A stretch of 32,699 nucleotides of DNA, from positions 1-32,699 of the IMG/VR virus record IMGVR_UViG_3300029955_000092. One strand, given 5' to 3'. Of the stretch, positions 3,710-27,440 are shown in pieces. How positions within the stretch are numbered: position 1 is the first letter of the stretch; each line of letters opens with the position of its first letter. This DNA is from a virus. The translations under genes were made by a program, and so were the position numbers. Under the pieces are notes generated by a model that did not search any database, was not told the origin of the DNA, and saw only the letters and a list, made by a program, of their open reading frames with translations.

Positions 3710-3711
3710 AG

Positions 3712-6121: not shown

Positions 6122-6811
6122 CTAATTTCCTAAAACAGTCGAGGCCGCCGGGGCGTTAACCGGCGGTGGTTGGGGTGTTACCTGATTTGGCTGGGCCGCA
6201 GCACCATCAGGTTGCGCCGTATTGCTAAATGCTGCAGAAGTACTAACCCTGATTTCGACCAGCGAAATATCAGCGACAATCATACCGGCACCCTGACCAG
6301 ATGTGCGCCGGTAATCAAACCCGGTGATATTCGCATTCAGGTATGTTTTTTCTGGCGTGACAATATCATACAGATCGAAACTGGCTTCCAATGTTTCTAA
6401 ATCATCTAAAAAAAATGCCCTGTTAGCCGACCCGTCAGGTCCGTTGCTGCCAACAGCCATCTGTATCCGTGCCTCATAGGGTTTTGCAATTTTATTGTAC
6501 TGCCCAAAGGAGCCGCCTTCAACTGGATAATCTGGTACGCTCGATTCTTTATGGTATTCAAGTGACAGCACTGTATCTGGCTGCAAGACCGGTACACCAT
6601 TAAGATAAATACCCCACTGCAGTTTAATCGGCGTTTGAGTGATACCTGCGTATATGCCGTTATAAATTGCCTGATTAACGCCCTGATTATTGGCTTGCTG
6701 CGCGGAGTTAACTAAACCGTTAGCGCCGATAATAATATCGGAAGTCAGCAAAACCGCAACGTCGACGGCTAAACCGATATCGTTAACCAGTTGGGGGATA
6801 CCTGAACCCAT
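6122..6811 (-). CDS. Baseplate/tail adaptor protein, conserved in contractile-tail phages
   Basis: 229 residues. The N-terminus has small-residue helices (residues 1-50). The middle has VLSLEYHKESSVPDYPVEGGSF, GQYNKIAKPYEARIQM and LETLEASFDLYDIVTPEKTY, then NANITGFDYRRTSGQGAGMIVADISLVEIR. The S-x-V-x-D-Y-P-V-E-x-G-x-F block and the late D-Y-R-R-T block are a recurring pattern in phage proteins encoded between tape measure and plug, presumed to link tail tube and baseplate hub. The last 35 residues are proline/alanine/glutamine-rich and probably disordered. Its ATG overlaps the tape-measure stop as TAATG. I do not recall a settled name for the family, so the role is mainly from position. Confidence 0.65.
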   Translation of the reverse strand: MGSGIPQLVNDIGLAVDVAVLLTSDIIIGANGLVNSAQQANNQGVNQAIYNGIYAGITQTPIKLQWGIYLNGVPVLQPDTVLSLEYHKESSVPDYPVEGGSFGQYNKIAKPYEARIQMAVGSNGPDGSANRAFFLDDLETLEASFDLYDIVTPEKTYLNANITGFDYRRTSGQGAGMIVADISLVEIRVSTSAAFSNTAQPDGAAAQPNQVTPQPPPVNAPAASTVLGN

Positions 6812-9085: not shown

Positions 9086-9513
9086 TATGCAGGTGCTCCT
9101 AAGATTGTTTGCCATTTGATCTGAAACCGGCGCGGTGCCAGCACTTTCTTACCCGCAGCTAAAGGCGTGTAATTAGCCAGAACTCCATTCGTTAACGCGT
9201 ATGCCCGTGAGATGCCAGGCTGATATATCGTACCGAATGCCTGATAAATTTCACGTTGCGCTTCCTGCGATGCGTACCACGCCTCGAAAAAGACATTCGA
9301 CACACTATCCGGTTGCAGGGTGACGTGCATAATTTTAATCTGCGGCACCCAGCCAGTCGACATAATTCCGTCAACGCCGATCAGGGCTTCGACAGGATCT
9401 ACCGCGTCAACCTCATAGGCGTCATCTTGTGCGAAGCCTATCATTTGTTGCGGGGTGTTAAACAAACTTGTTACGCCCAGATAAAGGGTACTGTTTGCTG
9501 AAGTAATGCTCAT
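9085..9513 (-). CDS. Tail tube protein (DUF3277-like)
   Basis: 142 residues. Key segments are DDAYEVDAVDPVEALIGVDGIMSTGWVPQI and MHVTLQPDSVSNVFFEAWY followed by the C-terminal beta region with RRFQIKW. The G-x-D-G-x-M/V-S-x-G-W block followed by V-T-L-Q-x-D-S is typical of DUF3277 phage structural proteins, which pair with DUF3383 sheaths. They stack as rings to form the inner tube. The gene lies 15 bases after the sheath and overlaps the chaperone start, the order expected for contractile tails. The identification is by motif and context. Confidence 0.85.
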   Translation of the reverse strand: MSITSANSTLYLGVTSLFNTPQQMIGFAQDDAYEVDAVDPVEALIGVDGIMSTGWVPQIKIMHVTLQPDSVSNVFFEAWYASQEAQREIYQAFGTIYQPGISRAYALTNGVLANYTPLAAGKKVLAPRRFQIKWQTILGAPA

Positions 9514-9528
9514 GGTGAATATCCTTTA

Positions 9529-11466
9529 TTATTGAGCTTCGACTGAGGCTAAATTCATGCTTTGTACTGATCCGCCATCCATGTACCAAAAAGTCATCGG
9601 CGGAGAACCGCGGGCCCCCCGCACCTGCGCAGTGGCAGGCAAAATCTGCAAATAATACCCTTGTGAAAACAAAATCGCATCGATCGGCGTGCCTGCCGCC
9701 GTATTGACTTCGGCAATCTGCAAAGCAGATAACTGAACGCCTGGCTGAAATACGCCGAAGTTACCCGCTTGCGTAATCACTGTGCTTAACGCTGCGCGAA
9801 TTAAAGCGTAACCTTGCGAGTTGTAAGGAATAGCTTTCACGCTGGTCAGCAGTGTCATTAACACTAGCTGGAACGCTGAATTCATCCATATCTGATTAAC
9901 GTAGCTATCCGCCCACTGGAACTGACCTGAAATCTGGCCTGGATTAAAAAACTGGAAACCCTGATTGGCTGTCGCGTAAGAGCCGTAAAAATTGTATCCG
10001 TTAGCGATCAGATTAGAAGATACAGTCTGTGACGAGACAGTTGACGTAAATCCGGACTGCGATTTAAACGCCAGTGTCGAACGTCCGTTTAACTGCGTGA
10101 AATCGATCGATGCAATAGAACCTGAAGTAAAAGCTGCCAGTCCGGTGTTATTTGGGTCGTAAACGCAAATAGTTCCCGAAGTTGAGTTATTTTTAAGAAT
10201 ATAGCCGAGACTGTTTGTTGCTGCGTTCGATTGCGTCGGAGTGATATCGAGATCCCACGCAACATAAGCGAATTCGCTATTTTGCAAGCCGTCCCAGTTA
10301 GCGAACGCCTGTTTATTCACGTTGCCGTAACCATTATCAGGATCGAACAGGGTAAAGAAAGTTGCCCAGTTAGTTGTCTGCGCGACGATGCCCGCCATGA
10401 AGGCTGCAGGTGTTCCAGGTACCGCGCCTTGCGACAATGCGGCCCCGGTCGCCGAAGTCATCGACAAAGCAGTAGCCAGTGTGCCGGTACAGTAACCAAT
10501 CGTACCTGCTGCACCGGGGGCGCCGCCGGTTAAAACGAAGTTACCGGAAACGCTATCATAAGTACAGGTGAGCGGACCTGAACTGATTGTGGTCGCAGAT
10601 ACTGTTTGCGCGCCGCCTGACGTAATATATGTACCTGCTGCACCTGTACCGGTGCCCAGAGCTGTAATGGTTGTACCGGCTGCAGTAGTACCTCCTGATA
10701 TGACTGATCCGACATACAGAGTACCTGACGACATCGCTGCAACAGTCATCAACCCGTATGATTGCGTAATCGTGGTTGATGTTGTTGTCTGATTAAGGCT
10801 GACAGTATAAGTGCCAATACCTCCCGTCGTGCCAGTAAGTTGTGCCGTAATCGCTGTACCTGTCGTAACGCCTGTGCCAGACAGTACGCCGCCGACAACT
10901 AAAGCGCCTGAACCGACAGCAGTCACTGTCAGGGTATAGCCGGTGATTGAGCCTGTTACGCTGGTTGTCGTGCCTGTAGCGATAGTTGTCGCGGCGCTGG
11001 TAACACCGTCGTACGCGCCGAATGCTGTGGTAATGATCGTCGCAGCGTTTGCGGGGCTGGTAGCCGCAGATAAAGTGATCGCCCCCGACGTTTTCTGTAC
11101 GCCTTCTACAGTGACGATTAACGTGCCGCTAAGAACCTGTAACGCTGTCAGTGATAAAGCCGCTGTTGCACCGCCGCGGATATATGCGGGTACGGCGTTT
11201 TGGTTGTATTGCGCAAACAATAATGCGCCAGGCTTAATGTTCGAACCTTGAAAACCCGCGAAATATATAAGAGCGTTAGCGTAGTGTACTGAAGCTAATC
11301 CGTAATATGCACCGACAGCGGGTGCTGAAGGAAATGAAGGAACTGTTCCGATTGGTGTGCGAGTGCCGTTATCCAGACATAGCCCGGATAAATCTAAGCC
11401 AGAACCGCCGGCCGATAAAACACTGGGGTTGACCTGGACAATGGCCGATGCTGGTATTGTACTCAT
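9529..11466 (-). CDS. Tail sheath protein (DUF3383-like) carrying two inserted repeat modules
   Basis: 645 residues. The N-terminus has [22 protein letters not shown] then [26 protein letters not shown], the usual start of DUF3383 sheath proteins. After about residue 320 the core resumes with [38 protein letters not shown] and a C-terminal domain with [21 protein letters not shown] and [15 protein letters not shown]. Sheath proteins of this family are usually nearer 480-520 residues. The extra length is a Thr/Ser/Gly-rich stretch at about 160-300 holding two copies of the module (169-234 and 238-295), probably on the sheath's outer surface. Start is an ATG with GGAG eight bases upstream. Confidence 0.9.
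10582..10962 (-). repeat. Two tandem protein-level repeat modules inside the tail sheath
   Basis: Copy 1 (10765-10962) encodes residues 169-234: [16 protein letters not shown] and later [13 protein letters not shown]. Copy 2 (10582-10755) encodes residues 238-295: [12 protein letters not shown], then [11 protein letters not shown]. They align with each other and with the J and cement copies as short strands spaced by S-G-T and G-T-G turns. Confidence 0.75.
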
Positions 11467-13877: not shown

Positions 13878-14933
13878 TTATACGCCTACCATCGAGCTGA
13901 TTGCAAAAGGTTGGAAAATAATAGCGCCCCAACTTCCCTGCGACTTTTTCTGTTCGAAACTAGACATTTTAACGACCATCTTGTGTGCCCTCATTTTTTC
14001 AGTGAATGCACAGAAGCCGGTTTTTTGCCCGTCAAGTTCATCAACAATCAACTGAACCATATTTCCTGCTGACGTATTTAAATACTGCTGTGCAGTTTCA
14101 ATACGCAGTTTAGGGAAGTTCTTTTTCAGTAAATCTTCAACGTTGACGTTGTACTGATTAGTGGTGGTTAAAGCAACACTGGACGCTGGTGACATTGCTA
14201 AAGTCATCGGCGAATCCATTTCAACCAGGCCACCGGATTGCGATACAACTAAACTGAATAGCGACTGAATATCTGTGTAGATTTCATTCGCTGTCGCTGT
14301 TACTGCACCGTTGGTAATCCACGGCCCTGACGTTCCTGAGTTGTATGCTTTCACACCTGGCGCAAGTGAAGGAAGTAAATCAGGAGAATTTAACAACCCG
14401 TAATTTTGCAAACCTTGCACGCCGTAAAAATAAGTATTGTTCTGGTATTTATCCAACACGATTGCAGAAGCAATATTTAAACGCGCCGCCCAGTCGATTT
14501 TAGCTAAAGCCGCCATTTCCAGTTGTTTTTCACCCCATTGCGTAATCGTCTGATAATGGTACGATTGACGTTGCGGGAAGGTGGCGTTTGCTGTGACGGT
14601 ACCGTTTTCAGAGTAGTCGCCGTAGCTCGATACTTCACCGCCGTTTTCAATGGTCGGGAACATCGCTGTAGCCATAGTCCAGTCGCCTTTTTTCGCTTCG
14701 CCCAAAATAGCGGCGGCGCGGTTCGGGGTGACTAAAACACGGACCAGGTTAGGGTCAAGGTAGTTAGCCAGGAAGGAGGGGATACCGGAGTTGCTGACGG
14801 TAACCAACGCGGGCTGTGCATCCAACGCCATACGTTCTGCAGCACCTTCTGGCAAATAGTCAAACAATTCGCCAGCGGGTCCCACAATACCGTACCGCGA
14901 TTCGAGCATCGCTAATTCTAAATTTCGTTTCAT
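13878..14933 (-). CDS. Major capsid protein (DUF2184-like)
   Basis: 351 residues. Recognisable blocks are IPSFLANYLDPNLVRVLVTP near 51-70, AAILGEAKKGDWTMATAMFP, GEVSSYGDYSENG then NATFPQRQSYHYQTITQWGEKQLEMAAL in outline, GVQGLQNYGLLNSPDL and PMTLAMSPASSVAL. These are the features of DUF2184 capsid proteins, which adopt an HK97-like fold. The FPQR-Q-S/Y-H-Y motif and the internal G-L-x-N-Y-G-L-L-N are diagnostic. A strong terminator follows, and the cement gene and protease/scaffold precede it, as expected. ATG start has no clear Shine-Dalgarno match beyond GGAAATAAC. No cleavage site for a pro-sequence could be decided. Confidence 0.88.
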   Translation of the reverse strand: MKRNLELAMLESRYGIVGPAGELFDYLPEGAAERMALDAQPALVTVSNSGIPSFLANYLDPNLVRVLVTPNRAAAILGEAKKGDWTMATAMFPTIENGGEVSSYGDYSENGTVTANATFPQRQSYHYQTITQWGEKQLEMAALAKIDWAARLNIASAIVLDKYQNNTYFYGVQGLQNYGLLNSPDLLPSLAPGVKAYNSGTSGPWITNGAVTATANEIYTDIQSLFSLVVSQSGGLVEMDSPMTLAMSPASSVALTTTNQYNVNVEDLLKKNFPKLRIETAQQYLNTSAGNMVQLIVDELDGQKTGFCAFTEKMRAHKMVVKMSSFEQKKSQGSWGAIIFQPFAISSMVGV

Positions 14934-14959: not shown

Positions 14960-16129
14960 TTAGCCGATAGCCCATGAACTCATCTTAATGAGTTCACCGA
15001 CCGCGCCGGGGGACATCGCAAACCACTTAGTTTCAGTGGCGCCCAAGACTGTCACAGTACCGCTTGTTGATGCGGTAGATGTATTAGTCAGATAACTGCC
15101 AACGCCGCCTGTAGCACCAGAAACCTGTGCTGTGACCTGCGTATTTGCGGCGATAGTGCCGCCAGTAATCGTGTCATTAATACTGATCGCGCCGGAACCA
15201 ACAGCAGAAACAACCAAAGTACCGCCTGATGCTGAAATGGTTGTTGATGTGGTGGTTTGGCTGATACTGACAGCATAAGTACCCAGACCGCCTGAACCTG
15301 AAATAAAGGCAGTGATGGTTGTTCCTGCCGATACGCCCGTTCCTGATAATGTCTGCCCGACAGCAAACGTACCTGACAATGCAGAGCCGGCGGTAAACAT
15401 GCCGCCTGATGCAGTAATCGTGGTACTAGGTACTGTCTGACTAATATTTACCTGGAAGGTAGCGCCAGCAGAACCGCCAGCGGTACCTGTCAACTGCGCA
15501 ACGATCGTTGTACCTGCAGCTACACCGGTGCCAGTCAGAGTCTGACCTGCAACAAAACCGCCGCTGGATAACGCACCCATAGTGAGTGTGGTACCTGCAA
15601 TAGTGCTGGTTGTTGCTGTATTAACCGCAATGGTTGATGTCGCAGCGCTATTGGCTACCAAAGAAGCAGTTACTGATGCTGCTGTTGGCGGAGAGCCTGT
15701 AGCCGCAAAACTAATCTGGCCTGTAGCGTTATTCGCGTAGGCTTTCATGTTTGCCGTTACGGCGGTAGTTCCGTTATTAGTTACCCAGAAGTCGCCAGCC
15801 TGATGCACTGTGACAGGGTATCCTGGAGGTACCAGCTGGGTGTTATATCCAAGGAACTTAGTAATCAGAGCTTGCTGTTCGCGGTGGATAAAACCGAGAG
15901 GTGTACCAGCTCCGGTATTGTTAACCTGCGACCACGGATCGACTTCGCCTGAAACGTTGTCGTAACCTTGCGGCGATCCCCAGCAGAAGTACCCTACCGT
16001 AACGCCGTTAGGTCCTGCTACAGGATCACCAGGCCCGTTCAACACCGACGCGCGGGGGTTGGCCGAGCAAAAATCGCCCGCCACGCCTGGTGCGGGCATA
16101 ATATTTACTTGCTGTTGAAATTGTGACAT
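14960..16129 (-). CDS. Capsid cement/decoration protein (Gp24/DUF2190-like) with three inserted repeat modules
   Basis: 389 residues. The N-terminal 145 residues ([74 protein letters not shown] in outline) match phage structural cement proteins that sit on the capsid. The C-terminal 25 residues ([21 protein letters not shown]) complete the same core. Between them, residues about 175-362 are three tandem copies of the Thr/Ser/Gly module. Usual family length is near 150-200, so the modules roughly double the protein and should be displayed on the outer head surface. Start is the ATG at 16129 with AGGAGA upstream. Confidence 0.82.
15044..15607 (-). repeat. Three tandem protein-level repeat modules in the cement protein
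   Basis: Copies encode residues 175-239 (15413-15607), 240-300 (15230-15412) and 301-362 (15044-15229). The second and third have the shared order S-G-T/A, V-G-Q/N-D, G-T-G/G-G-T, A-G-T/A-N-T, T-I-T/V-T-A, G-x-G-x-x-G-x-Y, S-I-S-Q-T or equivalent. Each is about 60 residues, and they follow one another without a linker. Confidence 0.78.
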
Positions 16130-16141
16130 AACTTTCTCCTA

Positions 16142-17611
16142 TTAACCTAATTGAATAACTGGACCCGCAGTTGGGAACCGGGACGCGAAGCTTGCTACGG
16201 CTGCACTGTCATGGGCCAAATGGGTTTTAGTGGTTTGGGTGGTTTGCTCTTTAACCAGCATCTTCACCATCGCTTTATACGCAGCCGGCGGAACATCAGT
16301 TAAATCTACGCCAGCAGCATCCAGCGCCATTTTATATACCGCTTCAGCGCTATCAAATGCCACACGTAATTCGCCAACATGCGGCCGGACGGCTTCGCGT
16401 GCTTCAGCGATGTCATTCAGTCGTTTTGTTGTGTTTTGTTCGGAATTTTTGACTGCGGCGGCAATCGCTGCATCCATGGCAGTTTTATCTGATGCACCCA
16501 TAGGTTTTTCCTTTTCGGATGTAGGTTTTTTAGGTTTGCCAGGGAATTCTGGCGGCTCATCTGCAGCTCCACCTTCAAGTTGAGCTAATAGCGCCTTTAG
16601 TTTAGTAAGTATTTCAGCCTTATCATTTTCAGCATCGGCTGTCACTTTTTCAGCTTTGGCACCATCAAGGTCTGCGTCTGGATTTTCGTCTGATGCTTCT
16701 TCATCATCATCCTCATCTTCAGCACCCTCTTCCGTTCCTTTTGGATCTGTAGCGCCGTCTTTATCTGCGTCTGGCGACTCGTCCGTACCGTCGTTATCAG
16801 ATGCTGAAAACATATCCAATAAACCCATCAGGTCTTTCAGACTCGCATCCTGTGCCAGTTTGCCTTTAGTCGCGATTTTAATCGCTTCAGCAATCTGCAC
16901 TTTTTTCTTTTCCCAGTTAGCATGAGTTACCCCATCCAAAATCGGGTTTAAATCGATTTTTGCGTCGTTAGCCAGTTTGGGCTTGAGGAAGACCACTAGG
17001 GCACCTTTCGCCATCGCTGCTTTGCGCGATAATGTAAAATTTCGTGACATAGAAGTCTCCAATTGTGAATCCCCGACAACGACATCGCTGCCGGCCCTGC
17101 CCTCTGTAACCAGTGCTACGTGGTTAAAACTGATATCCCGCATAACACCGTCGTATGCAACTCCTTCGTATGTGCCGGGTGTCATGTCCGCCCTGTAACG
17201 GTACCCGCACGATAATTCAACCTGATCTTCGCTTTCAATACCCGCTATAGCAACAGCGTCCCATACGATGAGACTGTTTTGCAAATAGGGTTTTTTAAAA
17301 ACGGCGTCGGTGCCAATGCTACCGACAACATCCATCTTTTTAGGGTCTTCAGGCGATACAGCAATGTGTTTTATCATCAGCTGCACCCCATTCGACGTCG
17401 GTGCTGCTTTTTCCAGTTCGCCCGGGTCGCGTAATAGCTGATAGACTTTTTTTGGATCCAGATTTAACGTGCCGTCCGGGTCTGGAATTTCGTGGCCGAT
17501 ATATGGGCACACATTAGCTTTAGATATATTTGAAACTGCTACGCGCAACCGCCCTTCAATGTCGTATGTTCGCGCACTGTTTTTATCAAGCGCGAGTCTT
17601 ATTTCGGCCAT
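16142..17611 (-). CDS. Prohead protease (DUF2213-like) fused to acidic scaffold
   Basis: 489 residues from the ATG at 17611, which has GAGGG five bases upstream; an in-frame ATG at 17644 lies inside the preceding gene and lacks a site. Residues 1-180 match DUF2213 proteins: ARTYDIEGRLRV, GHEIPD, LMIKHIAVSP (His82), VELSCGYRY (Ser134), RDISFNHVALVTEGRAG (His164). Ser and His here are the likely catalytic pair of an HK97-type capsid-maturation protease. Residues about 240-345 become helical and very acidic (runs of Asp and Glu), and residues about 370-480 form Ala/Lys/Glu helices, resembling a scaffold. One polypeptide therefore probably provides both scaffold and protease. It overlaps the 68-residue gene by 26 bases. 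Confidence 0.82.
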   Translation of the reverse strand: MAEIRLALDKNSARTYDIEGRLRVAVSNISKANVCPYIGHEIPDPDGTLNLDPKKVYQLLRDPGELEKAAPTSNGVQLMIKHIAVSPEDPKKMDVVGSIGTDAVFKKPYLQNSLIVWDAVAIAGIESEDQVELSCGYRYRADMTPGTYEGVAYDGVMRDISFNHVALVTEGRAGSDVVVGDSQLETSMSRNFTLSRKAAMAKGALVVFLKPKLANDAKIDLNPILDGVTHANWEKKKVQIAEAIKIATKGKLAQDASLKDLMGLLDMFSASDNDGTDESPDADKDGATDPKGTEEGAEDEDDDEEASDENPDADLDGAKAEKVTADAENDKAEILTKLKALLAQLEGGAADEPPEFPGKPKKPTSEKEKPMGASDKTAMDAAIAAAVKNSEQNTTKRLNDIAEAREAVRPHVGELRVAFDSAEAVYKMALDAAGVDLTDVPPAAYKAMVKMLVKEQTTQTTKTHLAHDSAAVASFASRFPTAGPVIQLG

Positions 17612-17792
17612 GTCGACCCTCAAGTAGTTGTTCCAGCACGTCAATAAGTGCCAGCATTAATTTTGTGTCATCGTCGCCTGTAAAACCGTTAGCATGCGCA
17701 GCGGCTGCCTGGCGTTCAGCATCTTTACGTGAAGAATAAACAGTGCCGTGGTTGCCCCATTTATACCCACCTGTTACTTTTCGGATCGGCAT
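17586..17792 (-). CDS. Small conserved phage protein (68 residues)
   Basis: Starts MPIRKVTGGYKWGNHGTVYSSRKDAERQ, then AAAAHANGF. The G-Y-K/R-W-G-x-H-G-x-V-Y followed by an Ala-rich helix is a recurrent pattern of small phage proteins near capsid protease genes. The second half is an amphipathic helix with LMLALIDVLEQLLEG. It sits three bases after the MuF gene and overlaps the protease start by 26 bases, giving a compact coupled set. No function is known to me. Confidence 0.68.
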   Translation of the reverse strand: MPIRKVTGGYKWGNHGTVYSSRKDAERQAAAAHANGFTGDDDTKLMLALIDVLEQLLEGRHGRNKTRA

Positions 17793-17795
17793 AAG

Positions 17796-18599
17796 CTACC
17801 TTAAATGATAAGACAGCCCCGGTATGACCGGCCTTGATATACACCGGCAGTTAGGCCGTTCACCCGGATAGATAAATTTACCTTCAACTTCGGAATACAT
17901 ACCTTCGTCAATCTTGTATGTTTTTTTGGCAGCACCCCACTTAACGTGTTCCTGCCGCGGTTCATTACCGCCGTTACTGTGCATCCAGACGGCTTCGGTA
18001 ATTCCCGCTTCTTTTTGCCTCACTTTTGTTATTGCTGCCGTAGCTTTGTTATTCTGGTCCCTGCTAATAAATTGTGCGCGCCGGCGCGTTACCCCAAAAT
18101 TTGCCTGTAACTCTTTACTTAACGTACCCAGATCGCGACCTGTCTGCACGCTGCGCATGACGATGCCTTCGACTTCAGCTAAATGCCGTTGGGGGATGCT
18201 TTTAATAAGAGCGACATTAGCGTTCACGGTGGCTTGTGCCACATCGTTCATGGCAGCCGTCATTTTGAACTCGATCGCAAAACCTGCCTGCTTTAACGAA
18301 TCCATAAAAGCCCGCGTCGTGTAGTCGCCTGACTGTTTAGTGAAACTTTTAGCCAGATCAGGTGCGCGGTCTGAAAACTTTTTAAGCCAGTAACGGCTCA
18401 GTCGTTTCATTAAGACGCGCATTAAAAATGCCGGGCTTGCATCCATCGCGATTTCAGGCGCGTTTGTTTTATATGCCTGCAACACCCAAAAATTAACGCT
18501 CTTATTCATCTGATCAATCAGCGCCAGTAACTGGCGGCTATACGCTGCTTCGATACCTGCGTTAGGATGAACAGGCTTAAATGTTTTAAGTGCTCCCAT
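17796..18599 (-). CDS. MuF-type head morphogenesis protein
   Basis: 267 residues. Residues 1-130 are helical. Residues about 140-260 hold the Mu gpF-like domain: RRAQFISRDQNNKATAAITK (174-192), W205-x-H207, R215-Q-E-H218, G222, then YPGERPNCRC (244-253), and terminal C-R-C. This domain is found in minor head proteins encoded next to portals, which help assemble the head and may enter the cell with DNA. No toxin or enzyme domain follows the MuF domain, so it is the plain short form. It follows the 813-residue SGNH-motif gene after nine bases. Confidence 0.85.
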   Translation of the reverse strand: MGALKTFKPVHPNAGIEAAYSRQLLALIDQMNKSVNFWVLQAYKTNAPEIAMDASPAFLMRVLMKRLSRYWLKKFSDRAPDLAKSFTKQSGDYTTRAFMDSLKQAGFAIEFKMTAAMNDVAQATVNANVALIKSIPQRHLAEVEGIVMRSVQTGRDLGTLSKELQANFGVTRRRAQFISRDQNNKATAAITKVRQKEAGITEAVWMHSNGGNEPRQEHVKWGAAKKTYKIDEGMYSEVEGKFIYPGERPNCRCISRPVIPGLSYHLR

Positions 18600-18608
18600 A
18601 CAAATAAA

Positions 18609-21050
18609 TTAATATACTGACGGGAAGGACGCGGGTGTGACGGAGTAAGACACAAGCACATTACCTTCGCTGTTAGGGTGTGTTCCTTCGGTGGTTGCAT
18701 ACCAGGGGTTCCCGTTGACAACAAATAGCCCTGTGGTGCCTGATCCGCCGTATTCCAAATAAGTGTTAGGGTCAATCAACGTGTTTATTTGCAGCAAAGA
18801 TTTAATGCTGGCCGTATTTAATGCTGTATATACAGTCATTCGTGTCGACGCAGCCCCGCCAGACCATCCGCCTAATGTAACTGTCTGGTTAGCCGTTGTT
18901 TCATACATGTCTGTTGTTGTAGCAACGTCAGGTGTTGGTAGTTTCTGAATGATATTTGCGCCGGGGCAGCAATTTTTTATCAGTCTGTTTACAGCAAACA
19001 TCTCACCTAAAATAAGCGTGGCGCCCTCCCGGTTGCCCGTTGCTGAATGAGGTCCAATGTATTGCCAAACCATCGTGCCATCAACAATATTTGCACCATA
19101 CGTTGTGCCGGAAAGATTGGTTAGTCCGGTAGTGCCGCTTACGGCACCTGGGACAGTTACGCCAACAGCGACATAATCGCTCGTTGCGCTTGTTCCTGAT
19201 ACCACATCACCAATAGTGTGTGAAGCTAATGAAGCCCAAACGGTAGGCGATAAATTATAGGAATGAGAGATATCATTGTGAACCATTCCGCATACAACAT
19301 GTGTCGGATTTCCCAGTGTCAGTAAACTCTGGCGGAATTGAGAATAGGCTGAGTTCATCCAGTAAATATTTGCGTCGCCGCCCTTCGATAAATTGAACAT
19401 CGAATAGCCGACGAGCTCATTTACGCCGCGCTCTAACCAGCCTGAATTACCTAAAGCAGAACCAAATGCGTCACCGGCATTACCGGAAGGTGAAAAATAA
19501 ATCGTAATAGGTGAACCACTGCTACCGATATTCGCTGCCGTGGTGTTCCATGTTGACCCGTTAGTTGAGCCGCCGGAGATATTAGTGCCTATGGTCCCTA
19601 CATTCGTTGACCCGTTTGTCCACATCGTTTCGCCGGTCGCCATAACGACGCCGCCCAGCCCACTCACTACATTGATGATGTTGCTGGCAATATAACCTGT
19701 AAATGATGCCATACCCCCGCCCTCAAGCGACCCGAATTCAATTGAATCGCCGACTGCAGCAATAAAAGGGGTTGACGCATTTGTCAAAATTTGCATTTGA
19801 CAAGGCGTCATGTACGTTGTAGAGCCTCCAGGACTTGTGGTGTAGGCTGTGTATGTCGCGCCTGACCGTGCCTGATCACTATGGATATAGGAGAGAATGC
19901 CTGTACAGGCGCCAGAAACGGTCACCGCATTGTTTAAAGTAAGTGTTACCGATCCCGTCGCCCCCGTAGTGTCTACTACGTAAGTACCGTTTGGCACAGT
20001 CGAACCTGATGGCCCCTGGAACATCTGGCCCCTGGCCCAGGCAGTACCGCTGGTAATAGTTACGGTACTGGATGCTGTAGCAGACCCGGTACCAGTAGCC
20101 GCCGTTGTGGCGTTAAGTACGCCGAGATAGCGTTGTAAGAAGTTACTGGCGGGTTTGCAGTAAGGAAGGGCCTGTCCGTATGCCGTCACAGTTGCGCCAT
20201 TAGACGCGGCGTTTGCTGCCAGGGTATAGGATGTTCCGGCAGAAACGACAGTGGCTATCGTGCCGACTTGCGCATTATTATAGAAAACCGGGCTGCCAAC
20301 GCCGAAGCCGTTACCGCTTACGCTGGTGCAAGTAAGCGTATTGCCCGTAGTAGCGAATACCGCCCCAGCGATAATTATCTGGGTCGGATTCTCCATGGTG
20401 GTATGCAAGCCAAAGAAATTCGGTGACGCCAGCGGTCCTGGTGTGTAATAAGCGCCTGGATCTAATATGTCTGTTTCAATGTAGCCGGCCTGTTGTGTTG
20501 GCCCGTTGTTACTTGTGCAGGTTACGTTAGATAAAGTGTTTCCGGTATAGGGAGATGCCAGGGTGATTCCGGTCGTACCAGAATAGGTTTGAATAATCCC
20601 TACGACAGATGTTCCGTTAAACAGAGGCTGCCCGGCCGCGATTGTCCCGAGAATATTAGAGCAGGTAACTGCGGATGAGCCCTGGCTAACTGATACCCCT
20701 GGAATAATCGCGTAAGTAGCTGTATTCGCACCGTTAAACGTGTATTGCTGACGCGGAGTTAATCCTGTAACCGCATTTGTGAAACTCAGCTCGAATGCTA
20801 CTTGAAAATTTAGCCCGAAAGGTATCTGCACTTCCTGTACTGCCCCGGATACGGTTAGCAGCATAAAAAGCGGAATTACTTGCCGGTGCTGACGAAAACG
20901 GGTGTTCAAATAGTGGCGTGAGCGCACTGTCTGTGAAATACCGCCGCCGACATTATAGCCTTGTAAAACAGGTGTCATCGAAGGCCCGACACCGCGCCAT
21001 GTGCTGTAAGGTAATACCTGTTTGACTGAGCTTGGTGGGATAGATAGCAT
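18609..21050 (-). CDS. Large structural protein with SGNH/GDSL-hydrolase domain
   Basis: 813 residues. Residues 1-100 are a mixed domain with no recognised family. Residues about 118-180, 228-291 and 323-386 are three Thr/Ser/Gly beta modules loosely like those in J, sheath and cement. Residues about 426-800 hold SGNH blocks in order: F-I-A-A-V-G434-D-S436 (block I), N-L-S-K-G-G (553-558, block II), G588-M-V-H-N592-D (block III), and E788-G-T-H791-P-N (block V). Ser436, Asn592 and His791 are candidate catalytic residues; the usual Asp three before His is Glu here. A W-x-x-x-T-x-x-G-D-V-V...D-G-T-M-V-W-Q-Y segment (about 604-666), like a small carbohydrate-binding insert, interrupts blocks III and V. 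An esterase/deacetylase of host surface polysaccharide is inferred. It lies between the 150-residue gene and MuF. Confidence 0.7.
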   Translation of the reverse strand: MLSIPPSSVKQVLPYSTWRGVGPSMTPVLQGYNVGGGISQTVRSRHYLNTRFRQHRQVIPLFMLLTVSGAVQEVQIPFGLNFQVAFELSFTNAVTGLTPRQQYTFNGANTATYAIIPGVSVSQGSSAVTCSNILGTIAAGQPLFNGTSVVGIIQTYSGTTGITLASPYTGNTLSNVTCTSNNGPTQQAGYIETDILDPGAYYTPGPLASPNFFGLHTTMENPTQIIIAGAVFATTGNTLTCTSVSGNGFGVGSPVFYNNAQVGTIATVVSAGTSYTLAANAASNGATVTAYGQALPYCKPASNFLQRYLGVLNATTAATGTGSATASSTVTITSGTAWARGQMFQGPSGSTVPNGTYVVDTTGATGSVTLTLNNAVTVSGACTGILSYIHSDQARSGATYTAYTTSPGGSTTYMTPCQMQILTNASTPFIAAVGDSIEFGSLEGGGMASFTGYIASNIINVVSGLGGVVMATGETMWTNGSTNVGTIGTNISGGSTNGSTWNTTAANIGSSGSPITIYFSPSGNAGDAFGSALGNSGWLERGVNELVGYSMFNLSKGGDANIYWMNSAYSQFRQSLLTLGNPTHVVCGMVHNDISHSYNLSPTVWASLASHTIGDVVSGTSATSDYVAVGVTVPGAVSGTTGLTNLSGTTYGANIVDGTMVWQYIGPHSATGNREGATLILGEMFAVNRLIKNCCPGANIIQKLPTPDVATTTDMYETTANQTVTLGGWSGGAASTRMTVYTALNTASIKSLLQINTLIDPNTYLEYGGSGTTGLFVVNGNPWYATTEGTHPNSEGNVLVSYSVTPASFPSVY

Positions 21051-21052
21051 AG

Positions 21053-21505
21053 TTAATTTACGTAATAGTCAAAGGAATCGCCAGCAGTACCGTTAACCCA
21101 GTTATTATTTAAGTTTGTCCCGGCAATAACCGAAATCGCGTCGCCCGGATTAAGCCGGTACCCGCCGCCCGCTGTGGGGTACACTGCATTAGTTACCCCC
21201 GCATTGCCTATGAACCCAACGCCCACATTGCCGATATTAGCGCGGATAAAACCGCCTTGCGTAATAGTCCCCGAAGGAAAATTAACCGCTGTGCCATTTG
21301 TAACTATGCCCAGCTGGCCTGAAATTACCGTTGCAGGGCCTGGTGCGCTGGATGTAGGTACTGGGTTTGCTATTCCCAGAGCTTGCGGACTGCCATTCAC
21401 GTCCAGCGCCATTAGTTGCACACCTGTTACCGTTTTACCTGTAGGCGTTCCTGTCGCAGTGGCTATTTCAAATTCGGACTGGGACGTAGTGTTAATAATT
21501 GTCAT
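21053..21505 (-). CDS. Small beta-rich virion protein, hypothetical
   Basis: 150 residues. After a short Thr-rich start, the C-terminal half reads GQLGIVTNGTAVNFPSGTITQGGFIRANIGNVG and later GGGYRLNPGDAISVI. The V-T-N-G-T-A-V-x-F/L-P-S...G-x-x-I-x-A-N...G-Y-R/L-L-x-P-G-D/E-x-I pattern recurs in small phage fibre or head-surface proteins. It lies between portal and the SGNH-motif protein. Its stop is two bases before the next ATG, so co-translation is likely. A surface or fibre-attachment role is inference. Confidence 0.6.
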   Translation of the reverse strand: MTIINTTSQSEFEIATATGTPTGKTVTGVQLMALDVNGSPQALGIANPVPTSSAPGPATVISGQLGIVTNGTAVNFPSGTITQGGFIRANIGNVGVGFIGNAGVTNAVYPTAGGGYRLNPGDAISVIAGTNLNNNWVNGTAGDSFDYYVN

Positions 21506-21518
21506 AGCGGCTCTTTAA

Positions 21519-23111
21519 TTAGTTACTGGTGCCATTGGAATGTAACCCTTCAGTGTGGGGTTCATATTCCCCTGGTCCTTCTTCGTCTGACATATCTGCA
21601 TCTGGCGGTGTAATCTCTTTATTCACGTCGATCGAGGCGTATTTCGAATCTTCGTCAGTAGCGATACGTTCGCGCGATTCCTGCGGGGCTATCACGCCTG
21701 CGTTAATCAAAATCGCATCTGTATCAGCTTCGACTTTACGCACATTAGCTTGTGCGCTGGCATTCATCACGCCTAGTGGTTCAAACTTAAACCCTAACGA
21801 CGGGTCGATTTCGCCGTACAGTGATAATTGCACCAGGTTAAATATTTTAGTGACGTGCGGACGCATTTGCGATTCCTGCCTGGCTTCAATGGTCGCGTTA
21901 AATGACTCAAATTCACCTTCGCTGGATGCATTCAGACCGCTAGGCGTAATCCCCAGCAGTTTAATTAACGGGATGCCCGTTACCGAGCTCATGTGTTCTT
22001 GTGCCTGCGCCTGCAAATGGTCCAGACCTGCCAGTGACGCTGACACGTTCATGAAGTCTTCGCGATCTTTATCGATCATCATGATATTGCGGTTGTCACG
22101 GAATTTATTAAACACTTCCGCGCGCGCAATCATCATATCAGCAGCCCCGCCGTTCAGAATTGTGCTCATGTCCGTTTTCAGAACCATGACTGAAAAACTA
22201 TGCAACAAATCAGATACGGACTGGCGTGTGCGCAACCAGTTGTCGACGTACGGCTTAGCAATTTGCGATAAACTTAAGCCGCCAAATGAATAGGCTGCTT
22301 TTAACAGATCCGGTACCGGATGCCCGATAAATGTCAGCAGACGTGACTGATGTACAGTCGTCGCCATCACATACCATGAATCAGGCTTGTAATAATTATT
22401 TTTTAACGGGTTAATTGAGTTGTACGCAGAAGGGTAAGTCCACATCGGCTCAACAACAATCAGTTCTTTTAACGGGTGTTTTTTGGTGACTTTGGCTTTA
22501 GACAGTTCGTTTGATGTGTCGCCTAAAGGTAGTTTCAATTCGTCTGGCGTATCTGTGTCGCCTGTATCGATGTAGATGTGACCGCGACCGAAAAACCCGT
22601 CCAGTTCCAGTACATGCCGTATTTTATTCTGTACATCTAGCCGGTTGAATTCGCGTTCAATTTCCTGTATCTTTTTCGATTTATCGTCATCCCCTTTTGA
22701 GGTAAACCGAATCCAGCGCCGTGTCATCTCCTGCGCAATAATTTCAGTTATCTGACGATATTCAGGGCGCTGTGATAATTCTGCCAGATAAGGGTAACCT
22801 AAGAAACCGATCCCTTCCTGAAAATTACCCGCGCGCGCCCATTCGTATGCCTGCCCTAAATATTCATCAAGCGCCAGTTTTTCGCCTGCCGGCACGACGC
22901 CTGGTGCGATACTAGGCAGCTCAAAGGCTGAATTAAACGTGGGGTGTGCCGGTTCGCTCGTTAAACGTATCTTTGCCACCGCTTCAGCACTAATATGCAT
23001 CGCTTTAATGAGCTTTTCAATACGCTCCGGCCCTGGTTCAGACGCTTTTTGGGTGACTTCCTGCGCCTTATTTTTAGGGAGAAAACGGCGAAAAAAAGCA
23101 AAAATAGTCAT
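21519..23111 (-). CDS. Portal protein (DUF1073-type)
   Basis: 530 residues from the ATG at 23111, which shares a base with the previous stop (TAATG); a longer frame begins inside the upstream gene. Evidence is EYLGQAYEWARAGNFQEGIGF, FLGYPYLAELSQRPEYRQITEIIAQEMTRRW in outline, GRGHIYIDTGDTD, and the long-helix region with PSGLNASSEGEFESFNATIEARQES then RPHVTKIFNL. The PxGLNAxxEGE motif followed by a helix is typical of DUF1073 portals, the dodecameric ring through which DNA is packaged. The C-terminal 40 residues are acidic. Some databases attach an Acb1 label to this domain family; the domain order here is a portal. Confidence 0.88.
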   Translation of the reverse strand: MTIFAFFRRFLPKNKAQEVTQKASEPGPERIEKLIKAMHISAEAVAKIRLTSEPAHPTFNSAFELPSIAPGVVPAGEKLALDEYLGQAYEWARAGNFQEGIGFLGYPYLAELSQRPEYRQITEIIAQEMTRRWIRFTSKGDDDKSKKIQEIEREFNRLDVQNKIRHVLELDGFFGRGHIYIDTGDTDTPDELKLPLGDTSNELSKAKVTKKHPLKELIVVEPMWTYPSAYNSINPLKNNYYKPDSWYVMATTVHQSRLLTFIGHPVPDLLKAAYSFGGLSLSQIAKPYVDNWLRTRQSVSDLLHSFSVMVLKTDMSTILNGGAADMMIARAEVFNKFRDNRNIMMIDKDREDFMNVSASLAGLDHLQAQAQEHMSSVTGIPLIKLLGITPSGLNASSEGEFESFNATIEARQESQMRPHVTKIFNLVQLSLYGEIDPSLGFKFEPLGVMNASAQANVRKVEADTDAILINAGVIAPQESRERIATDEDSKYASIDVNKEITPPDADMSDEEGPGEYEPHTEGLHSNGTSN

Positions 23112-23389
23112 TAAAATGTACTTTGATTTACCAAAAACTGGCTGACAGACGCTACCTGGGCTACGCCGGTACCGATCCACTCATACTGATGCAGCCCGAC
23201 TTGCACCGGGTTAAACTGCGCGTAATATACGCCAGTCGACACTACAAGCACTGAACTGGAGTAATCAGTGACGACACCATCGGGAGTTTGTATCTTAAAT
23301 GTGACCGTTGTCGGACTTATCGGGCTACCTGCTGGCGTTGTAACGGCCAAATTTAACTGGATCAGTGTGCCTGCTGTGTACGTGTTCAT
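23111..23389 (-). CDS. Small Ig-like beta-sandwich protein, hypothetical
   Basis: 92 residues. The pattern AGTLIQLNLAVTTPAGSPISPTTVTFKIQTPDG, then STGVYYAQFNPVQVGLHQYEWIGTG and an end F-L-V-N-Q-S-T-F, resembles one Ig-like/carbohydrate-type sandwich (strand, P-T-x-V-x-F, P-D-G, G-x-Y, G-x-H/Y-x-Y-x-W). Similar small proteins are encoded near portals. It overlaps the portal start by one base and the repeat-protein stop by four bases, so the three are coupled. Role unknown; surface decoration is possible. Confidence 0.62.
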   Translation of the reverse strand: MNTYTAGTLIQLNLAVTTPAGSPISPTTVTFKIQTPDGVVTDYSSSVLVVSTGVYYAQFNPVQVGLHQYEWIGTGVAQVASVSQFLVNQSTF

Positions 23390-24477
23390 GTGTCGCCCGT
23401 AATTGCTGTTGTGACGGCGTAATCGCCTGTCGCTGAGTTGTACACCCGGTTGTCGTTTGTAACAGCAATCATCGTCACGGCAGCAGCGTAATCGCCTACT
23501 GCTAAATTATATGCCCCATGGTCATTTGCGGCGGTGATAAACGCTGCGTAATCCGTGGCTGCCAGCTTGCCGATATTGGACCCGTGAATTACGACGGTAA
23601 CAAAACCTGCCTCTGTTAGCCCCTGCACCCCGCTGACATTAATAGTCCAGACAGGTGTACCGGTAACAACCCCCGCGGCGCTGTTTCCCTGTTTGCCTGC
23701 TAATCCTGTTCGCACCGCGCTTATTACATTACCTGCGGTAGTGGTGCCCTGAACACCTGCTGCATAAAGCCCGTCGTTCGCCGCCATCAGGCCCGCGGCG
23801 CAAGTGGCCTGTGCGCCGCTTAATGCTGCGCGTACTGCAGGTATTACTGAACCTGATGCTGACGCAGCCTGAACGCCTGCCAGTGTGCCTGTATTAATTA
23901 AATCAGAAGTGCTGCCGGCGGCTGATGTGCCCTGAACCCCTGACACGGTGGTCTTGCCTCCCGCTGCCAGACTGCCCGGAGAAGCGGCCCCTTGCGCACC
24001 AGTTACCTGCACACTGATGCCAGGAACCAGGCTGCCGGCACCCGATATCCCTTGTGCACCGGTTAATGTTACGGCTATGGCAACGGAGGTCGTGCCCGCA
24101 CCTGATACCCCCTGCACACCTGTGGCTTGTGCCCCGCTAAAAACGACACTGCCTGCCGAAGTCGTCCCCTGGACGCCCGTTACATTAACTGCAATGACTG
24201 ACGACACGGTGCCAGCGGAACTGGTTGCCTGAACCCCCGCCGTAGTTACAGCGGTCGTTACGCTGACATTTCCCGCGGCAGATGTGCCTGCAGCGCCGGT
24301 AATTGCTTGTAGCAGCGCAGGTATGATGGTGCCTGCGGAACTGGTTGCCTGAACACCGCCAACCTGATACTGAATACGGACTGACAGAACCCCGGCAACA
24401 GAGTTCGCCTGAACTCCGGTGACGGCATAACTGACAGACCCGCCGGCTGAACCGGAAAAAAGGAGCAGCATGGACAT
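23386..24477 (-). CDS. Repeat protein: 14 units of about 20 residues
   Basis: 363 residues. After a hydrophobic start (residues 3-19), residues 20-301 contain fourteen units of 19-22 residues, consensus T/S/A-G-V/A-Q-G/A-T/x-S/x-A-G-x-V followed by eight or nine mostly beta residues. Each unit is about 60 bases. Residues 302-363 are a separate set of three D-Y-A units (T-D-Y-A, G-D-Y-A, G-D-Y-A). The protein lacks Cys except one, has no catalytic motif, and resembles a stalk or decoration. ATG at 24477 has AAGGA seven bases upstream. Presence in the TerL-portal block suggests a virion part; that is inference. Confidence 0.7.
   Translation of the reverse strand: MSMLLLFSGSAGGSVSYAVTGVQANSVAGVLSVRIQYQVGGVQATSSAGTIIPALLQAITGAAGTSAAGNVSVTTAVTTAGVQATSSAGTVSSVIAVNVTGVQGTTSAGSVVFSGAQATGVQGVSGAGTTSVAIAVTLTGAQGISGAGSLVPGISVQVTGAQGAASPGSLAAGGKTTVSGVQGTSAAGSTSDLINTGTLAGVQAASASGSVIPAVRAALSGAQATCAAGLMAANDGLYAAGVQGTTTAGNVISAVRTGLAGKQGNSAAGVVTGTPVWTINVSGVQGLTEAGFVTVVIHGSNIGKLAATDYAAFITAANDHGAYNLAVGDYAAAVTMIAVTNDNRVYNSATGDYAVTTAITGDT
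23575..24420 (-). repeat. Coding tandem array, 14 imperfect units of about 60 bases
   Basis: The array encodes the G-V-Q-G-T-x-A-G-x-V units of the preceding entry (residues 20-301). Unit length is 20 codons in most cases, with four variants of 19, 21 or 22. Units differ clearly at DNA level, so it is an old array under protein selection rather than a recent expansion. Confidence 0.72.
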
Positions 24478-24500
24478 AGTGCTGTCCTTTTAATTAACTA

Positions 24501-25142
24501 TTAAACTGGTACTTCTTCCCAGGAAAATGAAGCTAAAAAGCCTGATGCGGCCATCACTGCAGAGGTGTAGATGAGCGCATAGCCGCCTGGGGGTAAAATA
24601 ATTTCACCTTTTATATCGTAAATACCAGGCATTGATTCCGTTGTGGTTACTGCGCCGGTTCCCAGCGCACCTAAAATAGTGTCTACGGTAGGTACGACAG
24701 GCAGCGTGATCGTGGCTGAAGAGTATAACTGGGCAACAGGCTGTGCACCCGAGCCTATATTTTTTGACTTAGGATTCAGCGATGTCAGAGTTCCGCTCAG
24801 TGCTGCAATGCCGTAACCGGTGGCCAGACCAAATACCAGCGGTGCTGCTGGTGCAACAATAAAACCGATGCCGACACGTTCAATCGCGACGTTTACTGCC
24901 GAACCGACCGGGTTGTAAAGCACTACCGTACCTGTTACCGTGGTGCTTAACCCGGCGATAGTTGCTGTCGCTAAGGCTGCCTGCATCGCACCACCAAAAC
25001 GGGACTTACGATACGTACCTTCATAACAAGGCCCGTGTAGTTCTGAAACAATTACGTCGTTCATGTTGCCGGAACGGACAACGGGCTGCGACCCGGACGG
25101 CGAGGAAGCCGCTGGTGCGCCGGTTTGCGTAGTAATTTGCAT
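24501..25142 (-). CDS. Conserved hypothetical virion-type protein
   Basis: 213 residues. The pattern NMNDVIVSELHGPCYEGTYRKSRFGGAMQ, then VVLYNPVGSAVNVAIERVGIGFI and GLATGYGIAALSG, is one I associate with unnamed phage structural genes (D-V-I-V-S-E-L-H-G-x-x-Y-E, N-P-x-G-S-x-V-N). The end, LPPGGYALIYTSAVMAASGFLASFSWEEVPV in outline, is beta strands with a P-P-G-G-Y turn. There are no signal peptide or membrane helices. It is flanked by other beta-rich genes of the same block, with AAGGG eight bases upstream of the ATG. No function can be assigned. Confidence 0.6.
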   Translation of the reverse strand: MQITTQTGAPAASSPSGSQPVVRSGNMNDVIVSELHGPCYEGTYRKSRFGGAMQAALATATIAGLSTTVTGTVVLYNPVGSAVNVAIERVGIGFIVAPAAPLVFGLATGYGIAALSGTLTSLNPKSKNIGSGAQPVAQLYSSATITLPVVPTVDTILGALGTGAVTTTESMPGIYDIKGEIILPPGGYALIYTSAVMAASGFLASFSWEEVPV

Positions 25143-25154
25143 AGTTATAACCCT

Positions 25155-26753
25155 TTAAATATAAGTAGCACTGACGCTACAAGTCGATGCGGTGATCGCT
25201 GTTGCATCCAACACGGCGATAGCGCCAGTGACTGCCCAAATTATGCCTGATGAAAACGACATACCAACAGAGGGTATCGGTAGTGCATAAGAAGCTGTTG
25301 GCGGTATATAAACGTTATAAACCGGTGTCGTCGTGCCTACCGTTGCCGTAGTTGCGTTAAATAGTTTTAGCCAGACCCCTGTACTGTTGGAGTTAGATAC
25401 CGACATCGACATCAGTCGGCCCGCCGAATTTTTAGTTGTTTGACTTACAGGTGTTGCTGGTGCCAGCACTACTGTGGCAAATGACGTCCCGCTAGGTGTT
25501 ACTGTTATGCCCAGGGCTATTTGCCCGGCTGCGGCGGCTGAAGCTGTTCCCCCTATTTGATTTATGTTAACAGGGGCGGGCGCTACGTACCCCGACGCCC
25601 AGGGTTGCGCACGTAAATAGGCTGTCGCGTTACCGGCACCCGTTACCGTTAACTTTATCCAGCGTGCTAAACAAGGGAAACTGTAAGAACCACTCGAAAT
25701 GGCGGTTACGTACCCGTTTATTATTAGCGCCGCCGTCCCGGATAACGCTGACCAGTTTACAAGGTCATTAGAACAGCTCACCGTGGCTTGCATAACATAA
25801 GTTGTTATATTTAAGCTTTGGTACCCTGTCGTATCTATGACGAGCTGGCCGTTAACTACACCGTTTAACGGGATTGGTACTGGCGCATCTGAAACAAGTA
25901 TCCGGCCATTTACATCGACCGCTGGCTGATTAACTATCTTAAAGCGTGCCGCAAGACCTAACGTATCATCAAATAAGGCAGACATAAAATCGACGTTGGC
26001 AAAATCGCCAGCCGGGTCGCCCGTTATTGCCTGAAATAGCGGCCCGTCAGATGATGTTGCTGCTAACGTGGCCGGGTCGGGAACACTGCTGCTGCTAATA
26101 ACGGTGACTGGCAGTCCTGCGCCCGGTGCGATAGCCACACCGTTGATTTCGTTTAATGCGACGGGCAGGTTACCTAAATTAGTCACCGGCATAATAGCGC
26201 CGTATGCCACATTCAAATTAAACAGGGTGGTCGTGTTGGGACCGACATTTTGCGCCGTTACTTTGACGTAGTTACCGTTCAAAATGCGTGAGATATTAAC
26301 CGCGTTGCCCGGCGTGACTAAATACGTCCACACATCGGCCAGATTTACCCCGAGAATATCGACATATTGCAAAACAGTTAGTATAAGCGGCTGATCTGAT
26401 GTACATAAAAACGTGATAGCCGGTTCCGCTTCCGCTGTTTCAATCGCGCCGGGAAATATTTGCCCGGGGGCTAATTGTGCGGTGCTGGTATTAACTGTAC
26501 TGTAAAAAAAATTAGTCGCGCCCAGCGCAACCATCAGCCCGTTTTGGCCGGCACCGGCTGATAAACTGTTAATCGGGGAACCGGAACCGTCATTACTGTT
26601 AACGCTTCCGGTCCATGCCGATTCGCTGCTACCGTCAGCCCCACCCCCTACGTCGAGGATGGTCATCGGTGTTTTAACACCTGCGTTGACCGTTTTTGCT
26701 ACCGTACGGATTATATCGCCGGCCCCGCCGCTTGATGCGCTATTGTCACTCAT
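25155..26753 (-). CDS. Hypothetical multidomain beta-sandwich protein
   Basis: 532 residues. Residues about 110-185 form a first sandwich-like domain (ITFLCTSDQPLILTVLQY, YVKVTAQNVGPNTTTLFNL). Residues about 300-385 form a second, discoidin-like pattern: TVSCSNDLVNWSALSG, GSYSFPCLARWIKLTVTGAGNATAYLRAQP, i.e. S-N-D-x-x-x-W then Y-S-F-P-x-x-A-R-W-I-K-L. Such sequence occurs in receptor-binding and decoration proteins. The C-terminus (400-532) is beta sequence with ISVGMSFSSGIIWAVTG-type strands. No enzyme motif seen. It is part of the TerL-portal block; function unknown, with a carbohydrate-contact role possible. Confidence 0.62.
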   Translation of the reverse strand: MSDNSASSGGAGDIIRTVAKTVNAGVKTPMTILDVGGGADGSSESAWTGSVNSNDGSGSPINSLSAGAGQNGLMVALGATNFFYSTVNTSTAQLAPGQIFPGAIETAEAEPAITFLCTSDQPLILTVLQYVDILGVNLADVWTYLVTPGNAVNISRILNGNYVKVTAQNVGPNTTTLFNLNVAYGAIMPVTNLGNLPVALNEINGVAIAPGAGLPVTVISSSSVPDPATLAATSSDGPLFQAITGDPAGDFANVDFMSALFDDTLGLAARFKIVNQPAVDVNGRILVSDAPVPIPLNGVVNGQLVIDTTGYQSLNITTYVMQATVSCSNDLVNWSALSGTAALIINGYVTAISSGSYSFPCLARWIKLTVTGAGNATAYLRAQPWASGYVAPAPVNINQIGGTASAAAAGQIALGITVTPSGTSFATVVLAPATPVSQTTKNSAGRLMSMSVSNSNSTGVWLKLFNATTATVGTTTPVYNVYIPPTASYALPIPSVGMSFSSGIIWAVTGAIAVLDATAITASTCSVSATYI

Positions 26754-26759
26754 GACTTA

Positions 26760-27440
26760 TTAAGCGATACGAATTAAAGAGGTGGTTGAGCCTACTGTGG
26801 GCAGGAGTATAGTAAATGTGCCAGCCGTTACGGTTTGTGTACCGCCAAAGCTGCCGATATAAGCGCAATAAGTCTGGTTACTCGCGTTATAAATCATGCA
26901 TCCTGATGTGCTAAACGTAGCCGATGTCCAGCTCGGGTTTGTTGTGGGCTGCGTGACAGCGACCAGCGTGTTCAGCACCGGTGTGGTATTTAATGCGCCG
27001 CCGCACGCCTGTCCGCCCTGTGTATATCCGCCCGATCCGGCTAATTCATCGGTGCCTAAGTTGGTTGTTGTGGGCGACCCTGAACTTGACCCCCACTGAA
27101 CCGACCCCGCGCCATATGTTCCTGTCACCGTCGCAATCATCAGGGCACAATTAAAATTATGCCCGACGAAGGTTAATGTAGGTGACCCGGCACCTGTGCA
27201 TGCCTGGGTGATATAGCAAGACGTGGCACTGTCGATCGCACCCACAAAACTGTTTGCCGGTACGTTGGTGCCTGATACGCTGCAACCGATAGCTACGTTG
27301 GCCAGCGACGACAGTGCTGTGATATGTGTGCTTGTGTTAGCCGTTGTGCCGGTCGCTGTACCCGAACCGTTAAAGCAGTGGCCGCCCTGTAAGACGCTGA
27401 CCTTAAACTGAGAGGGGAGTGCGGTGGTAATACCAGCCAT
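26760..27440 (-). CDS. Hypothetical phage structural protein with variant repeat module
   Basis: 226 residues. The start TTALPSQFKVSVLQGGHCF and the later GTDELAGSGGYTQGGQACGG are characteristic of a recurrent family of unnamed phage proteins (S-F-K-x-x-L-L-x-G-x-H-x-F ... Y-G...D-E-x-x-G-x-G-Y-T-x-G-G). Residues about 25-95 are an insertion: GTTANTSTHITALSSLANVAIGCSVSGTNVPANSFVGAI and further strands ending L-T-F-V-G-H-N-F, a variant of the Thr/Ser/Gly module used elsewhere here. The G-x-x-V-S-G-T-N-V-P-A-N-S turn matches the G-T-G-V-x-x-G-T turn of the other copies. No function is known. Confidence 0.62.
   Translation of the reverse strand: MAGITTALPSQFKVSVLQGGHCFNGSGTATGTTANTSTHITALSSLANVAIGCSVSGTNVPANSFVGAIDSATSCYITQACTGAGSPTLTFVGHNFNCALMIATVTGTYGAGSVQWGSSSGSPTTTNLGTDELAGSGGYTQGGQACGGALNTTPVLNTLVAVTQPTTNPSWTSATFSTSGCMIYNASNQTYCAYIGSFGGTQTVTAGTFTILLPTVGSTTSLIRIA

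Follow-up and report, generated by a model that had tools for sequence, protein, structure and literature searches.

The 32,699-nucleotide stretch of viral DNA analysed here (the window) encodes a protein of 813 residues, P0001, that is probably, at a rough probability of 0.6, an SGNH-fold serine esterase carried on the virion head and acting outside the particle. Comparative sequence analysis strongly suggests the head location, and gene position alone is no proof that a protein is part of the virion. P0001 adds a divergent new member to a known enzyme class, and its position is unusual but recurrent.

The window is a myovirus fragment. The initial annotation gave the gene for P0001 without a strand; the 813-residue reading frame is real and lies on the minus strand, the plus-strand reading of the same interval being broken by many stops. 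Two other viral contigs contain the gene at 99–100% identity, one copy complete and the other cut at the contig end. The genes of the window run in the order TerS (assigned by position), TerL, a 167-aa protein, four family-less proteins, portal, a 150-aa protein, the SGNH gene, MuF and the DUF2213 protease, followed by the minor capsid (XM1 gp53-like) and major capsid genes and then by sheath and baseplate genes (Table 1). The location between portal and MuF genes was therefore correctly described at the outset, with the 150-aa gene intervening on the portal side. Gaps of only 2 nt and 9 nt flank the SGNH gene, indicating that it belongs to the head operon. The product of the 150-aa gene is possibly a small virion protein.

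Table 1 Features of the window that bear on the SGNH gene and its head operon
Feature	Position	Strand	Evidence
SGNH hydrolase gene (P0001), 813 aa	18609..21050	minus	ORF; family profile match; 99-100% copies in two further viral contigs
N-terminal part, residues 1-414	19809..21050	minus	no detectable relative
SGNH catalytic domain, residues 415-813	18612..19808	minus	AlphaFold2 core pLDDT 87-96; Foldseek/VIA matches to SGNH esterases
Nucleophile Ser436 (block I, GDS)	19743..19745	minus	Ser in 50/51 family members
Low-confidence insert 1, residues 462-533	19452..19667	minus	pLDDT below 50
Asn592 (block III, HND)	19275..19277	minus	Asn in 50/51 family members
Low-confidence insert 2, residues 608-672	19035..19229	minus	pLDDT below 50
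Signature TDMYETTANQT, residues 713-723	18882..18914	minus	Gln722 invariant, 51/51
Block V EGTHPN, residues 788-793 (His791, Glu788)	18672..18689	minus	His in 47/51; Asp at -3 in 40/51
Cluster of four proteins without family, terminase-portal interval	23386..27440	minus	no Pfam/PHROGs family below E 0.05
Portal protein	21519..23180	minus	PF06381 E 2e-83, phrog_146
150-aa gene directly upstream of SGNH gene	21053..21505	minus	no Pfam/PHROGs match
MuF-like head morphogenesis protein	17796..18599	minus	PF04233 E 3.5e-10, phrog_324
Head maturation protease (DUF2213)	16142..17644	minus	PF09979; phrog_2229 E 1.4e-130
Minor capsid (XM1 gp53-like) protein	14960..16129	minus	PF23982 E 8e-22; phrog_2122
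Major capsid protein	13878..14933	minus	phrog_264 E 1.2e-67

A near-identical genome of 57 kb (G001) carries ordinary tail-fibre genes with Gp53-like_C downstream of its baseplate genes, where an endolysin and a class 3 lipase are also encoded. The lipase gene (PF01764, E 1e-13; L009:4060-4716) lies near the endolysin gene, and this phage may, judging from its genes, carry two unrelated esterases. Changes between the window and G001 were too scarce for synonymous and nonsynonymous counts to be of use. The tape measure gene and the adjacent chaperone gene (window 6811-9115) share ~74% DNA identity with G001 over part of the block, as against 98-100% for most other genes, a pattern that suggests recombination of this block. 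Among the baseplate genes of the window, positions 2618-3715 encode a 365-aa protein that, on reading, has a signal-peptide-like start and that shows a weak match (E 9e-4) to a K1-lyase C-terminal domain.

The assignment of P0001 to the SGNH class of hydrolases is well supported by a profile match, a predicted fold and a fold search. A profile built from 40 phage SGNH domains, P0001 excluded, scored residues 415–813 at E=1.4e-17 (Z=100,000), while the best of 2,000 shuffled sequences reached E=12. In the profile alignment GDSI, NLSKGGD, HND, TDxYxTxxNQT and EGTHPN follow in order with every block in register. The SGNH blocks listed by the initial annotation, GDS with Ser436, NLSKGG (residues 553–558), HND with Asn592, and EGTHPN with His791 and Glu788, were all found in the order given, and GDS436, NLSKGG, HN592D and H791 are in register with 50 relatives. 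None of 20,000 shuffles contained the ordered block pattern, which was written from the P0001 sequence itself, and homology is the stronger evidence. Conservation among the 51 aligned members (Table 1) partly follows from the choice of members by motif; Asn592 played no part in that choice, and its figure rests on the alignment. The alignment was made from trimmed domains, a full-length MAFFT alignment having put the GDS block in the wrong place.

Single-sequence searches detected the family at much lower significance or not at all. Direct tblastn of P0001 against single relatives gave 7e-5 (L076) and 2e-4 (L090). Full-length tblastn against phages returned nothing at 1e-5 and mostly chance matches at E<10, and with the insert-free catalytic core every match was annotated as an esterase, a hydrolase or a minor tail protein, at E near 1. 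Pfam, PHROGs, NCBIfam and PDB sequence searches with P0001 found no match, the curated cut-offs of the Pfam Lipase_GDSL families PF13472 and PF00657 were not reached, and a scan of the genome contigs found no relative. Several relatives do exceed the Pfam cut-off (the cement-fused P0009, P0003, P0007 and L041 for PF13472; L061 and L047 for PF00657), and the curated libraries probably miss P0001 because two inserts split its domain.

The initial annotation had also observed that Glu replaces the catalytic Asp three residues before the histidine. The substitution is present, as Glu788. In SGNH hydrolases an Asp at this position is usual, not universal. The position is Asp in 40 of the 51 members, and the remaining ones have Asn, Glu, Ser, Gln, Ala or Gly, so that Glu is not unique to P0001. 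Judging from this alignment, the −3 Asp does not define the family to which P0001, with its Glu788, belongs, and Glu788 by itself would be no argument for lost activity; the variant may lower activity. It is improbable that P0001 is a catalytically dead SGNH fold acting only as a carbohydrate-binding module: the Glu at 788 and the loss of His or Asp in some family members would fit such a protein, but Ser436, Asn592 and His791 are all kept in P0001, and the other member with Glu (L082, TTEGTH) retains its His.

Structure prediction and a fold search of the domain, a check proposed in the initial annotation, likewise pointed to the SGNH fold. The AlphaFold2 model of residues 415–813, computed from the 51-sequence alignment, has a confident core, in stretches of pLDDT 87–96, and two low-confidence inserts. 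Single-sequence prediction of all 813 residues was uninformative (mean pLDDT 31.5). Foldseek against the PDB matched the domain model to GDSL lipases, PatB, peptidoglycan, sialate and rhamnogalacturonan O-acetylesterases and two phage tailspike esterases. VIA-align found 238 chains with Z>=8, led by the carbohydrate esterase PbeAcXE (Z 19.8, rmsd 2.7 over 204 residues), and among viral models (BFVD) the SGNH protein of Xanthomonas phage Xp15 ranked second. Residues 1–179 of E. coli TesA (1ivn) align with residues 13–399 of the model, and the two ends of this alignment would fit a pairing of S10 with Ser436 and of H157 with His791. Residues 415–813 are thus predicted to form a three-layer α/β SGNH fold, and the similarity to carbohydrate esterases suggests that P0001 may be a polysaccharide O-acetylesterase.

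Residues 1–414 match no Pfam, PHROGs or NCBIfam family, and no PF22758 or PF23982 cement domain was found in P0001. By eye this part resembles the accessory β domain of the SGNH family, a resemblance that a profile test did not support. The minor capsid protein (14960-16129) has three copies of a Gly/Thr-rich β module of 62–70 aa, the tail sheath has two and a baseplate wedge protein has one (window 9529-11466, 1172-2584), and copies resembling it are present in the tail fibres of G001. This module was considered as an origin of the N-terminal repeats of P0001, and the proposal was not supported.

The closest bacterial relative of P0001 is encoded on the Rhizobium leguminosarum plasmid pRlBT01b (WP_283187664; P0008). 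It shares with P0001 the HND block III and the insert that follows, insert 2 occupying the same place in both proteins; a blastp alignment that runs through it has E 2e-8. Phylogenetically, P0001 clusters with two close homologues of P0008, also from Rhizobium, at support 93. Unlike P0001, the plasmid protein is bacterial, has a probable export signal and is encoded beside glycosyltransferase and acyltransferase genes. The grouping with Rhizobium proteins and the setting of their plasmid homologue point to an acylated polysaccharide as the likely substrate. A stand-alone relative with a probable export signal, and the fact that no attachment domain was recognised in P0001, would also suit a non-virion accessory enzyme that acts on host polysaccharide at lysis or modifies the host surface, its gene being a passenger in the head operon. 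We regard this as very improbable, since a reading of residues 1–40 of P0001 revealed no export signal, the gene is tightly spaced within a structural operon, and relatives are fused to a capsid cement domain (see below).

Manatee Spring phage MW202485 was the starting point for extending the SGNH family, which then took in XAJ2, Xp15, Pseudomonas putida and Sinorhizobium phages and 26 IMG/VR loci; a DNA pattern for TDxYxTxxNQT marked 45 stretches in IMG/VR, most of which encode SGNH relatives. The initial annotation had contrasted a usual tail location of such phage esterases with the head location found here. This contrast is wrong for the family of P0001, whose genes occur in head modules of many unrelated phages. 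At least 14 further neighbourhoods have such a gene next to portal, MuF, capsid or terminase genes, a count that takes in L061 and the prophage lineage described below and that, coming from a survey seeded by motif and mostly by head-gene queries, shows recurrence and is no unbiased census of frequency; many of the surveyed loci were too short or too divergent for classification. Head placement of the SGNH gene is therefore no oddity of the window phage. The order in Xanthomonas phage XAJ2 is portal, MuF, SGNH, scaffold and coat, and in Xp15 the SGNH gene lies 0.9 kb before TerL. The proteins concerned (XAJ2 AMW36125 and Xp15 gp04; PHROG 19495/8480, 'lysophospholipase L1-like esterase') belong to the same SGNH family and have the TDxxxT..NQ signature. 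They are about 20–25% identical to P0001, which differs from them in its two catalytic-domain inserts and in an N-terminal part unlike their accessory domain. In L033 the order is portal, 117 aa, SGNH, 335 aa and major head protein, and in L045 it is portal, 282 aa, major head protein, 193 aa, SGNH and Ad3; L060, L084 and L053 are similar, and head or terminase genes lie within a few kb of SGNH in L041, L051/L067, L038/L039, L054 and L040. Small genes precede the SGNH genes in L033, L041, L045, L060 and L084, which makes the 150-aa gene of the window a candidate partner for attachment to the head. Locus L042 (6469-10687) holds two SGNH family genes in one phage, near small genes that read like head-tail connector proteins.

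The slot taken by the SGNH gene varies between related phages. Genome G004 is collinear with the window (TerL 60%, portal 56%, MuF 51%, minor capsid 53%, major capsid 71% and sheath 61% identical), but its portal-MuF interval holds only a 93-aa gene and its SGNH gene directly follows TerL, at the terminase end of the four-protein cluster. Since the two SGNH domains are only 27.5% identical, far below the other shared genes, the SGNH genes of G004 and the window seem to have been acquired independently, each into its own slot of the operon. In a further relative, G003 (portal 58%), no SGNH gene of this family was found in the sequence read. Two genes among fibre-like genes upstream of the terminase of G003 (L007:3418-4907) read like a glycosyltransferase and a methyltransferase.

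The strongest evidence for a head location of the family comes from prophages L022–L025 and L028, in which a single 667-aa protein combines a Phage_cement domain (PF22758, E 2.9e-19; also phrog_563, virion structural protein), a Calx-β-like part and a Lipase_GDSL_2 domain (PF13472, E 9.6e-9, above the Pfam cut-off). As in the window, the SGNH domain is encoded between a portal and a head maturation protease related to those of the window; unlike P0001, the fusion protein has the cement domain. The fusion gene begins ~40 bp after the portal gene, and the protease gene, a free cement gene and the capsid gene follow. E217 gp24, the founding member of the PF22758 cement family, protrudes from the outside of the capsid as trimers (PMC10329688), and the fused esterase would accordingly be exposed on the surface of the capsid, provided that the fusion protein is incorporated. 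This expected place among the outer capsid decoration argues against an enzyme that is packaged inside the head, leaves with the DNA at ejection and acts on the cell envelope during entry, as does the β-rich, repeat-laden sequence of P0001, which would be typical of exposed virion proteins. The MuF and portal neighbours of P0001 are compatible with an internal protein. The nearest case in the literature is Vibrio phage Peru-2, whose virions, according to a preprint, contain an abundant GDSL esterase that cryo-EM did not resolve and that its authors speculate to lie in the internal core (PMC13320782). On balance we consider an internal location of P0001 improbable.

The initial annotation had left open whether P0001 is a head-attached enzyme or a fibre gene moved into the head operon. 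Of these, the head-attached enzyme is favoured by the recurrence of SGNH genes in head modules across many unrelated phages, by the cement fusion and by the separate tail-fibre module of G001. A receptor-binding tail fibre or tailspike esterase, its gene merely residing in the head operon and the protein still on baseplate or tail, is less favoured and unlikely, though the likeliest of the alternatives considered here. The SGNH esterase tailspikes of Schitoviridae, such as Moo19 gp82, B2 gp48/gp49 and G7C gp63.1, have the SGNH fold in common with P0001 (Foldseek ranks 40 and 42). These proteins are tailspikes, whereas P0001 and many of its relatives are encoded in head modules. The characterised SGNH phage esterases that this analysis encountered are tail proteins, among them the Moo19 and B2 spikes, which have measured esterase activity on 4-nitrophenyl acetate (PMC11654681). 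Family members also occur among tail genes in Gordonia phage Apricot and in MW202485, the Gordonia relatives carry the annotation 'minor tail protein', and the window phage has further family-less genes between terminase and portal, all of which would accord with a tail protein. Against it stand, besides the three points that favour the head, the N-terminal part of P0001, for which Pfam and PHROGs gave no tail-fibre family match.

Were P0001 a head-borne esterase, it would form part of the head, either close to the portal or on the surface of the capsid, its catalytic domain facing the medium, as is expected where the domain is fused to capsid cement in related prophages. There it would remove acyl groups, most likely O-acetyl groups, from the capsule, exopolysaccharide or O-antigen of the host, and the inserts and N-terminal part may provide attachment and glycan contacts. 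Deacylation could let the phage move through or bind the host coat, complementing the tail fibres.

Phage polysaccharide esterases have so far been studied as tailspikes, and a search of the open-access literature (subscription journals lay outside it) found no report of a head-borne or cement-fused phage SGNH esterase. We see an even chance that a widespread class of tailed phages displays SGNH polysaccharide esterases on the head too, encoded in interchangeable slots of the operon and in some lineages fused to cement. The cement-esterase fusion makes display on the head directly testable, because the places of cement proteins on the capsid are known. If the proposal is true, a single particle could be covered with numerous copies of the enzyme. 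If the family as a whole is displayed on the head, capsid proteins would help phages through the slime layers of their hosts, and the many head genes of no assigned function that lie beside portals would become candidates for host-interaction enzymes.
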